Part shown: positions 11,710-14,359 of the stretch, piece after piece
Layout of the letters: each line of letters starts with the position of its first letter
How positions within the stretch are numbered: position 1 is the stretch's first letter
From: Pseudonocardiales bacterium
GTDB lineage: Bacteria > Actinomycetota > Actinomycetes > Mycobacteriales > Jatrophihabitantaceae
Reading direction: 5' to 3'
Assembly (NCBI GenBank): GCA_030840295.1
Contig: JAVEET010000157.1
Location: 1 to 44,781, forward strand
DNA length: 44,781 nucleotides
The notes under the pieces: model-generated
The model's database searches: none
Told to the model about the DNA's origin: nothing
The model's input: the letters and a program-made list of their open reading frames with translations, nothing else
Position numbers and translations under genes: made by a program

Positions 11710-12336
11710 ATGGCACGACGCTCGATGGGTGGCGGTGCGGAAACCGCGCCGCCGCCAACTTCTCTCGTACGACCGTTGCCGTCCCGGGAGCGACTACCCG
11801 AGGACATCGCGTCAGATCCCGACGCCGATCCCGAATCGGTGGCGAGAACCATCTGTTTGCGCCTCCTGACCGTTCGAGATCGCACTCGAGCCGAACTGGC
11901 TGACGCGCTGGCCGCCAAGCAGGTGCCGACGGAGGTCGCCGGCCGGGTGCTTGGCCGCCTTGGCGACGTTGGGCTAATCGACGACTGCGCGTTCGCGGCG
12001 ACCTTCGCGCAGACTCGGCAGTCCGAACGCGGCCTCTCAGCCCGCGAGATCACTCGGCAGCTCCGCAACAAGGGTGTTGCGGTGGAGGTCGCCGCCCAGG
12101 CGGTCGCCGGTATCGACCAGGAGGCCGAGCGTCGGACGGCGCGGGACCTGGTCGAACGAAAATTGCGTGGCATGACCCGACTCGATGGGCCGACGAAAAC
12201 CCGTCGACTTGTAGCGCTGCTGGCCCGCAAGGGTTACTCGCCTGGTATTGCCTACGGCATCGTGCGAGAAGTGATCGGCGCCGATACCGCCGATTCGACG
12301 CCGACAGCCGACGACGAATCGGCCTGGCTGGCTTGA
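11710..12336 (+). CDS. recX: Regulatory protein RecX
   Basis: RecA modulator that binds the RecA filament and limits its growth. It has 208 residues from the ATG at 11710, ten bases after recA, indicating co-transcription. The three-helix RecX repeats are visible from about residue 45: TICLRLLTVRDRTRAELADAL, LGRLGDVGLIDDCAFAATF and RDLVERKLRGM...LVALLARKGYSPGIAYGIV. The first 40 residues are a Pro/Arg-rich extension common in actinobacterial RecX. The open frame extends upstream into recA, but that part is a shadow. Confidence 0.93.
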   Translation: MARRSMGGGAETAPPPTSLVRPLPSRERLPEDIASDPDADPESVARTICLRLLTVRDRTRAELADALAAKQVPTEVAGRVLGRLGDVGLIDDCAFAATFAQTRQSERGLSAREITRQLRNKGVAVEVAAQAVAGIDQEAERRTARDLVERKLRGMTRLDGPTKTRRLVALLARKGYSPGIAYGIVREVIGADTADSTPTADDESAWLA

Positions 12337-12360
12337 CCGCCAGGCATATCGATATAGCCT
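12333..12360 (+). promoter_or_regulatory. Candidate promoter at the recX stop, reading toward rny
   Basis: TTGACC (12333-12338) and TAGCCT (12355-12360) are 16 bases apart; the -35 overlaps the recX stop codon. Transcription would begin near 12367, giving a leader of about 240 bases before rny. Confidence 0.5.
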
Positions 12361-12379
12361 CACAAGATCAGGAGAAAGG

Positions 12380-12439
12380 ATGTGCGGCCGACGTCGCACA
12401 TTGACATACAGATCAATGTGTTCGTTCGATAGACCGTGA
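12380..12439 (+). CDS. Possible 19-codon leader peptide upstream of rny
   Basis: An ATG at 12380 with AGGAGAAAGG directly before it opens a 19-residue frame, MCGRRRTLTYRSMCSFDRP, ending TGA at 12437. It contains two Cys and five Arg codons. Its reading frame covers two overlapping inverted repeats (12381-12400 and 12397-12420), the arrangement expected of a translated attenuator. A second short frame, ATG 12451 to TAG 12510, has no properly spaced ribosome site. The peptide is not one I recognise, and a frame this short could occur by chance; the ribosome site and the promoter at 12333-12360 are the support. Confidence 0.35.
   Translation: MCGRRRTLTYRSMCSFDRP
12381..12420. repeat. Two overlapping, mutually exclusive inverted repeats in the rny leader
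   Basis: TGTGCG (12381-12386) pairs with CGCACA (12395-12400) across eight bases. CACATTGA (12397-12404) pairs with TCAATGTG (12413-12420) across eight bases. Both hairpins need 12397-12400, so only one can form at a time. Further small stems follow at 12491-12504 (CCGGA-N4-TCCGG) and 12503-12514 (GGGC-N4-GCCC). Confidence 0.6.
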
Positions 12440-12604
12440 CAACGACAAGGATGAGGAGATACCCAGCCCCGCCATCGACTGGCGTGGGAACCGGACATTT
12501 CCGGGCTTAGGCCCGACCATTCTCATCGGTGTCCGCCTCTACGGGCCCGGCCTCCTGGCTGTTCGACGGGTTTGAGACCTAGTCGACTTGAGGGGAGGAA
12601 GGGT

Positions 12605-14359
12605 ATGGGCGTAGGTAGCCTGGCGGCGGTTGTCGCCGGTTTCGTGTTGGTCTTGGTTCTCGGTCTCCGGTTCTTATCCATTTATGCATCCGGCCGTACG
12701 GCGCGCGGCGCGCACGAAGTCCCCAATTCCGGCCAGGAAGCTGCAGAGCAGCTGGACCTGGCCGAGTCCGCGGCGGAGTCGATCAGGCAACGGGCCGAGC
12801 GGGAGGCCGTATCGCTGCGTCGCTCGGTCGCAGCCGAGGCCGACGCCCTACGCCGCGCCGCACAGAGCGAGGCAGAGGCGGTCCGGGCCGGGGCGGAGGC
12901 CGCTACAGCAAACGCCGAGGCGGTGCGCAGGCGGGCTGAATCCGAAGCCGCCGACCTGCGCGCCGCCGCCCGGCGCGCGGCAGATGTCGAACTGCGGGCT
13001 CGCCGCACCTCGCTGGATGATGCTGAAGGTGTCGTGGAGAAGCGAACAGCGGCACTCGATCAACGTGAGACCGAACTCGATCGAGCGTTGGCGACCCTGG
13101 CTGAGCGTGAACTCGAACACGACCAGGAGCGGCTGGCCATCGCCGGGCTGCGGGACGATGTCGAGACGATGCGGATCGAACTCGCCGGCGCGCGCGAATT
13201 GGTGGCCGCCGAGCAGGTCGCCACGCTGGAGCGCATCGCCGGCCTGACTGCCGACCAGGCCAGGGTGGAACTGCTGGCATCGGTGGAGTCGACTGCGCGC
13301 CGAGACGCGGCGTCTCTGGTGCGCAAGATCGAGGCCGAGGCCCGTGCCGAGGGGACGGACCGGGCACGGGCGATCGTCGTCGAGGCCGTCCAGCGGGTGG
13401 CCAGCGAGCAGACTTCCGAGACCGTCGTGAGCGTCCTGCACCTGCCCAGCGACGAGATGAAGGGCAGGATAATCGGCCGCGAGGGCCGCAATATCCGGGC
13501 GTTCGAGTCCGTGACCGGCGTCAACGTCATCATCGATGACACGCCCGAGGCGGTGCTGCTGTCGTGTTTTGACCCCGTCCGGCGAGAGATCGGGCGAATC
13601 ACGCTCGAGAAGTTGGTGCTCGATGGCCGGATCCACCCGCATCGCATCGAAGAGATCTACGAGACGGCCAAGACCGAGGTCGACGAGCTCTGTTTCCGGG
13701 CAGCCCGGGATGCGCTCGCCGATGTCGGTATCACCGACCTCGATGATCGCTTGATCCCGACGCTGGGTCGGCTGAAGTACCGCACGAGCTACGGACAGAA
13801 TGTGCTCGGTCATCTGATCGAGACCGCGCACATTGCAGGCGTGATGGCCAGCGAACTCGGCCTCGAACCGGCCCTGATCAAGCGGTCTGCCTTCCTGCAC
13901 GACATCGGTAAGGCCCTCACCCACGAGGTCGAAGGTTCGCACGCGATTATCGGGGCCGAACTGCTGCGCAAGTACGGCGAGGACGAGGCCGTCGCGCACG
14001 CCGTCGAGGCCCATCACAACGAGGTACAGCCACGGACGGTCGAGGCCGTGCTGACCCAGGCAGCCGACGCCTGCTCGGCGGCCCGGCCCGGCGCGAGGCG
14101 GGAGTCCCTCGAGACCTACGTCAAGCGACTGCAGCGCATCGAAGAGATCGCGGGATCCAAGCCCGGGGTGGAAAAGGTGTTCGCAATGCAGTCCGGACGC
14201 GAGGTCCGGGTGATGGTCTTGCCGAACGACGTCGACGACCTCGCCGCCGGCGTGATCGCGCGTGAAGTGGCCAAACAGATCGAGGATGAGCTGACGTATC
14301 CGGGACAGATCCGGGTAACCGTGGTCCGGGAATCGCGCGCGACCGAGGTCGCGCACTGA
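12605..14359 (+). CDS. rny: Ribonuclease Y
   Basis: Membrane-anchored endoribonuclease that begins mRNA decay. The 584-residue protein has an N-terminal membrane helix (about residues 3-24), an Ala/Arg/Glu-rich coiled coil (about 45-235), a KH RNA-binding domain with [12 protein letters not shown] (near 290), and an HD domain with His432-Asp433 in [12 protein letters not shown]. All domains of the family are present. The ATG at 12605 has an aggggagg ribosome site; an in-frame GTG or ATG at 12572 lacks one. RNase Y is well known in Firmicutes and less widely distributed in actinobacteria, many of which rely on RNase E/J. The 268-base leader is discussed separately. Confidence 0.95.

Follow-up and report, generated by a model that had tools for sequence, protein, structure and literature searches.

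Genetic organization of the recX-rny region

In many bacteria the decay of mRNA is initiated by RNase Y, and the question raised by this locus is how the gene encoding it might itself be controlled from the stretch that separates it from recX. The window analysed here comprised 44,781 nucleotides, in which the genes around the leader were assigned by Pfam domains to recA, recX and RNase Y (rny). Counted from the predicted transcription start to the rny start at 12605, the leader has approximately 240 nt. On the basis of sequence comparison and energy models, this gap is on balance judged a probable structured translational leader dedicated to rny, which would be ON by default and would close upon loss of its 5' strand. 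The elements on which this reading depends are presented in Table 1.

Table 1. Position and basis of the elements predicted in and around the rny leader.
Feature	Position in the window	Strand	Basis
Promoter: -35 TTGACC (12333-12338), -10 TAGCCT (12355-12360)	12333-12360	+	Genus pattern matches, alignment
Predicted P1, 5' strand UCAGGAG, within ATCAGGAG	12368-12374	+	Genus invariance, covariation in 41 leaders, deletion model
Hairpin P2, arms 12379-12388 and 12393-12402 (first hairpin of the original prediction)	12379-12402	+	Fold, genus pair changes
19-codon frame of the original prediction, ATG 12380, TGA 12437-12439	12380-12439	+	Present, not conserved
AUA motif ACATAC behind P2	12404-12409	+	Motif count in 45 leaders
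Second AUA copy, CGATAG	12427-12432	+	Motif match
Putative anti-Shine-Dalgarno CCUCC, overlapping the P1 3' strand	12551-12555	+	Consensus folds
Predicted P1, 3' strand CUCCUGG	12552-12558	+	Consensus folds, deletion model
Shine-Dalgarno GGAGG of rny	12594-12598	+	Pairs with CCUCC in genus consensus fold
rny, RNase Y, 584 aa	12605-14359	+	Pfam RNase_Y_N, KH_1, HD

Conserved promoter and 5' box

The original prediction placed the promoter TTGACC-N16-TAGCCT at the recX stop, followed by an AGGAG ribosome site (12370-12374), and both are present as written: TTGACC overlaps the stop codon (12334-12336) and is followed after 16 bases by TAGCCT, which has three of six bases in common with TATAAT. 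Based on the spacing to the -10 element, transcription is predicted to start at about 12366-12368. A generic sigma-70 scan found 0 promoters at this site, with 0.2 expected; the promoter was accepted despite this result on the comparison across the genus, where the pattern of promoter plus ATCAGGAG gave one match per genome, before rny, in eight of nine genomes, the ninth, without a match, being 63% complete. The alignment of eight genus leaders revealed that ATCAGGAG (12367-12374), located at the predicted 5' end of the mRNA, is invariant and is followed directly by the hairpin P2, with an invariant ATA behind it. Promoter and 5' box were also recognised by eye in all 22 family loci having upstream sequence. 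That rny has a conserved promoter and leader between recX and its start codon, as originally proposed, is supported by the genus pattern matches and the alignment.

Distribution of the leader and sets of leaders compared

A stringent pattern combining promoter, spacing and AGGAG matched 16 of 150 genomes of the order, with one match each, and coordinate comparison placed all 16 matches upstream of rny and on its strand. Among the same 150 genomes, those without an rny match gave zero matches, and a reversed control pattern gave one match. Since 64 of the 150 genomes had an rny match and 16 were matched by the pattern, the stringent pattern misses most genomes with rny. The leader was sought in 41 loci of the order, where a regular expression found 30, including a weak one that was not used (L152), and two more were recognised by eye (L142, L153). 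Two order loci are without upstream sequence (L023, L124), and the leader was not found or was unclear in L026, L030, L137, L139, L141 and L148, among which only L030 and L137 were read by eye. In at least one genome of the f2 family (L156, G067:C20:44300-46000) the promoter is kept and the leader has about 40 nt, too short for the proposed switch; this locus would be a natural loss of the switch and a useful comparison. Promoter and box were found in named Streptosporangiales, Actinocatenispora, Virgisporangium, Jiangella and Allonocardiopsis loci and, by eye, in Actinoplanes-type, Micromonospora and Kribbella loci. In Micromonospora-type loci (L130, also L125, L127, L129 and L131), a strong Shine-Dalgarno sequence after the leader starts a small frame, which in L130 has 37 codons (by eye) and a stop codon overlapping the likely rny start (ATGA); the sequence suggests translational coupling between this small frame and rny in these loci.

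The main comparative set of 41 leaders consisted of 22 family loci, 7 further loci and 12 order loci, in each of which a promoter and 5' box were recognised, by eye and with a regular expression, and which were required to have a readable rny start. The long-range pairing P1 described below had been noticed by eye before the tests were run. Micromonospora-type loci were left out of this set because of an ambiguous start, L038 and L130 being placed in a second set. This second set of 15 leaders covered Micromonosporaceae types, seven Streptosporangiales, Jiangella, Kribbella and Allonocardiopsis, and left out L121 as well as L036, L120 and L122, which had no anchor. For the k-mer, AUA-motif and unpairedness counts, the near-duplicates L111, L005, L143, L029 and L017 were removed and nine of the 15 second-set leaders were used.

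The short frame and the local hairpins

The original prediction proposed a leader-peptide attenuator, in which ribosomes on a 19-codon frame would choose between the hairpins 12381-12400 and 12397-12420. The frame, MCGRRRTLTYRSMCSFDRP, does contain two Cys and five Arg codons, and in seven of eight genus leaders a start codon lies 5-9 nt past AGGAG, which is in favour of such a mechanism; the remaining genus leader is without a start. The seven frames have 19, 19, 9, 18, 9, 18 and 15 codons, with, in the same order, 2, 1, 0, 2, 1, 1 and 0 Cys codons, and in L111, whose RNase Y is 96% identical, Arg replaces the first Cys. In the wider set, any start codon 3-12 nt after the box was found in 15 of 41 leaders, two leaders without a recognisable box being scored as lacking a start. 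What was found is thus a frame that varies across the genus in length, sequence and Cys codons, not a conserved short frame with regulatory codons, and the comparison indicates that it is probably non-functional.

The arms of the two predicted hairpins were located at TGTGCG (12381-12386) and CGCACA (12395-12400) and at CACATTGA (12397-12404) and TCAATGTG (12413-12420), with 12397-12400 common to both. Their mutual exclusion is weak, since the arms overlap but both hairpins can coexist when a few pairs shorter; neither is the overlap general, as L003 was seen by eye to have both hairpins without it. Conservation therefore extends to one of the two hairpins, P2, which is kept in the genus, and not to the shared arm or the frame, so that conserved alternative hairpins over the frame were discarded. 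Given this variability, the attenuator can hardly be the explanation of the leader.

P2 itself is partly supported by comparison of the sequences: in eight genus sequences, four of seven modelled pairs changed on both sides and 82% of cells were paired, while four such pairs were likewise reached in 80 of 500 runs in which the columns of the entire structure under test were shuffled. The fold of the frame region (12378-12437) was ordinary, with a z of -0.85 and 32 of 200 shuffles as good or better. Local folds of the window and seven relatives ranged from z -0.96 to +0.80 against shuffles, and because of this range local fold stability was not used as evidence. P2 (12380-12401) gave a terminator-like score on the minus strand only, where it is a possible stop for antisense transcription. 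A transcription terminator as the function of the leader was rejected, as the terminator scan detected none on the plus strand ahead of rny and two within rny.

Predicted long-range pairing of the 5' end with the anti-Shine-Dalgarno segment

Mutually exclusive pairings, which the original prediction assigned to the local hairpins, are better placed between 5' strand/anti-Shine-Dalgarno and anti-Shine-Dalgarno/Shine-Dalgarno. In the window, the helix P1 (UCAGGAG/CUCCUGG) and the pairing of CCUCC with GGAGG (12594-12598) exclude each other; the P1 strands are about 180 nt apart, and this exchange lies mostly outside the region first proposed. The sequence CCUCCU near rny is well conserved in the alignment of eight genus leaders (shifted in L006), and in the genus consensus fold it pairs with the rny Shine-Dalgarno. 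In the consensus fold of twelve f3-type leaders, the 5' GGAG pairs with the corresponding anti-Shine-Dalgarno segment instead. RNAalifold recovered four P1 pairs and two short local helices from the f3 alignment, few helices being obtained because the variable middle of the leader is out of register. The models thus contain what is expected of a translational switch, namely an anti-Shine-Dalgarno segment that pairs either with the Shine-Dalgarno or with an alternative upstream partner.

Within the genus, 93% of P1 cells were paired with zero changes on both sides, owing to the invariant 5' strand. For the same reason, the cognate pairing had no advantage in seven genus leaders, its value being reached by 4399 of 5000 permutations. 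Over the 41 leaders, the pairing of each 5' strand with its own 3' segment scored -21.4, compared to -18.2 (sd 0.43) for permuted pairings and -20.1 for the best of 5000 permutations. The cognate value was reached by 2 of 5000 permutations in 14 other family members and by 0 of 5000 in 19 further (order) leaders. A wider 5' segment of 32 nt, replaced by the narrower one in the reported test, gave -28.8 vs. -25.5 (sd 0.49), and covariation of Shine-Dalgarno with anti-Shine-Dalgarno was weak in the permutation test on the 41 leaders (-26.5 vs. -25.4, sd 0.49).

Different sequences occupy the same P1 place, as in CCAGAGC/GCTCTGG, TGAGGAG/CTCCTCA, ACGAGGAG/CTCCTCGT and TACGAGGAGTTA/TGACTCCTCGTA. 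Further equivalents are CCGGAGATGATG/CATCGTCTCCGG and TGTTGGAAGTAG/CTGCTTCTGACG and, recognised by eye, AAGGGAT/ATCCCTT in Kribbella and ACAGGAGTG/CACTCCTGT in L153. The best contiguous helix was located elsewhere than P1 in six of the 41 leaders. Helices were longer than in shuffles when the 41 leaders were combined (Fisher 4.8e-11), the p-values being optimistic because the leaders share a common ancestry. In the window alone, the P1 helix was not significant against dinucleotide shuffles (p 0.29); since the window by itself also gave an unremarkable fold (z -0.85) and no generic promoter, all weight was placed on the comparison. In seven Streptosporangiales loci (L039-L044, L046), the 5' part GAGGAGTTACTCCGCG hardly varies, and the duplex model gives it an extended pairing with a region that has the anti-Shine-Dalgarno at its end; in this model, the strands of P1 and P2 may be merged in these loci.

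Modelled cost of opening the Shine-Dalgarno

The effect of the two P1 strands on the ribosome site was calculated with energy models, whose absolute values are unreliable and whose result is the contrast with the controls. Removal of the 14-nt 5' strand increased the cost of opening the Shine-Dalgarno in 36 of 41 leaders (mean from 5.15 to 6.77 kcal/mol), whereas an internal deletion of 14 nt increased it in 23 (mean 5.23). Shuffling of the 5' strand raised the cost in 33 of 41 leaders, with a mean of 6.41. In the second set, loss of the 5' strand increased the cost in 13 of 15 leaders, against nine of 15 for the control. In the window, the cost rose from 6.10 to 8.89 kcal/mol upon removal and barely moved upon shuffling (6.33 vs. 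6.10). Among the cuts modelled there, only those that took off 7-30 nt from position 12361 onwards raised it, to 7.0-8.9.

The opposite effect was obtained when, in leaders without the 5' strand, the 3' partner was deleted as well. The mean cost decreased from 6.77 to 5.01, compared to 6.81 for the control deletion, and was below that of the control in 31 of 41 leaders; a decrease of any size was obtained in 27 of the 41, and with the control deletion in 20. This effect was also obtained in the window, where the cost dropped from 8.89 to 4.24 kcal/mol (control 8.88). In these models, the rny leader works like a translational switch with an anti-Shine-Dalgarno.

The AUA motif and a putative nuclease trigger

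The motif [CG]ATA[GTC] was present in 38 of 45 leaders, compared to 16.4 (sd 2.7) in shuffles, and was modestly more unpaired than other A/U positions (0.61 vs. 0.52, p 0.03, 25 of 41). A modelled cut at this motif increased the opening cost of the Shine-Dalgarno in 32 of 37 leaders (5.26 to 6.90), four of the 41 having no motif. In the window, the same cut lowered the cost from 6.10 to 5.55, and there the model is more compatible with 5' nibbling than with cleavage behind P2. For the B. subtilis enzyme, the part of PMC11780869 used here describes a preference for GA within AU-rich stretches that have little structure themselves and are followed by structured RNA.

It is reasonable to consider feedback by way of RNase Y, and we infer this enzyme, an attractive candidate, as the trigger. 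The AUA cut raises the cost in most leaders (32 of 37) and lowers it in the window, which makes both the nuclease trigger and the preferred explanation less certain. A tentative possibility is that a nuclease, either RNase Y or a 5' exonuclease, usually triggers the switch by attacking the 5' part, which would create a feedback loop. The 5' strand, which resembles the Shine-Dalgarno region of rny itself, would keep the anti-Shine-Dalgarno occupied until RNase Y, or a 5' exonuclease after it, removed this strand, and the anti-Shine-Dalgarno would then shut the ribosome site. Removal would proceed by a cut at the AUA behind P2 in most leaders and by 5' nibbling in the window. If a nuclease-read switch of this kind is true, the level of the enzyme would be sensed through the intactness of the mRNA 5' end, and a single helix would control stability as well as translation in many of the actinobacteria that possess RNase Y.

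Proposed mechanism and alternative explanations

Comparison and energy models together show that the leader is conserved, that P1 covaries outside the genus, that its 3' segment has alternative partners and that the leader is associated with rny and no other gene; we infer operation in cells, with ON as the default state and OFF upon loss of the 5' strand. Transcription would start from the conserved promoter at the predicted site, and the first bases of the mRNA would form P1, which would leave the Shine-Dalgarno less occluded and rny translatable. This state is taken as the default because the 5' strand is synthesised first. Loss of the 5' strand, or its sequestration elsewhere, would release the 3' segment for pairing with the Shine-Dalgarno, and translation would drop.

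The same output of P1, anti-Shine-Dalgarno and Shine-Dalgarno could be driven by a small molecule or a non-nuclease regulatory protein reading the middle of the leader. The architecture resembles that of a translational riboswitch, and a search for a metabolite-riboswitch core made GAAAGG (8 of 45 leaders vs. 0.6 expected) and the AUA motif (38 of 45) stand out, alone among the k-mer counts, either of which could belong to a binding core. GAAAGG lies mid-leader, downstream of the AUA motif, for example in L013, L007 and L021. The middle of the leader is, however, poor in conserved sequence and variable in length and matches no Rfam family, and a ligand or protein of this kind is considered unlikely. 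Quite unlikely, too, is that P1 serves as a static clamp against decay dependent on the 5' end, with no switching at the Shine-Dalgarno. P1 begins a few bases from the predicted start, and the 5' phosphorylation state can affect cleavage by RNase Y and RNase J (part of PMC3071783), both of which speak for such a clamp; the clamp leaves unexplained why the partner of the clamp is so often the segment that occludes the Shine-Dalgarno, and also the modelled effects of losing either strand.

It could also be argued that the promoter alone is under selection, the pairings being by-products of purine-rich starts in a GC-rich genome, and the local folds, no better than shuffles, together with the nonsignificant helix of the window, are in line with this view. 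Against it stand covariation that beats permutation, the increased opening cost after shuffling of the 5' strand and the combined helix test over the 41 related leaders, and it is held to be very improbable. The switch between the 5' strand and the Shine-Dalgarno remains the preferred reading.

Comparison with known systems

Rfam at gathering score gave 0 matches in the window and 0 in 20 related loci, and the leader gave three matches at E up to 10, all far below gathering scores. A known Rfam leader family, such as Actino-pnp or others, was discarded on this basis. No described family fitting the rny leader was found in Rfam or in the literature search, and no report of an rny leader in actinobacteria was found in this search, which excluded most subscription journals and a 2017 survey of 224 candidate RNAs.

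Translational riboswitch platforms contain a segment with two possible partners, an upstream strand and the Shine-Dalgarno, and the same either/or pairing is predicted for the rny leader. The difference is that no ligand-binding core was recognised here and that the upstream strand is predicted to be located at the very 5' terminus of the mRNA. The Actino-pnp motif is located, as its name indicates, in front of the RNase gene pnp. This motif (RF01688) is a cis-regulatory RNA in actinobacteria, according to part of PMC2864571, and differs in that its Rfam model matches neither the window nor the 20 related loci. In the 5' UTR of E. coli rne, which encodes RNase E, the leader structure mediates feedback on a decay nuclease (PMC10303841, in part), a likeness to the mechanism proposed here. 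The rne system concerns another enzyme and a bound stem-loop, in contrast to a 5'-end strand that would compete for the anti-Shine-Dalgarno in a leader with no Rfam match.

A further comparison is with B. subtilis, where RNase Y controls its own synthesis and, as in the leader described here, the rny mRNA has a long 5' UTR; most cuts fall within the initial 50 nt of the UTR, and the ribosome site can be in secondary structure (part of PMC10303841). Control in B. subtilis acts by mRNA decay, through cleavage within the UTR and within the first 100 nt of the open reading frame, followed by RNase J1, and no exchange between 5' end and anti-Shine-Dalgarno is described in the part of that paper used here (PMC10303841). 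B. subtilis is the one account found of RNase Y's own control, and it works via decay, as far as the same part of PMC10303841 goes; a conserved rny leader in actinobacteria, if true, would represent a second, different solution to the self-control of RNase Y.
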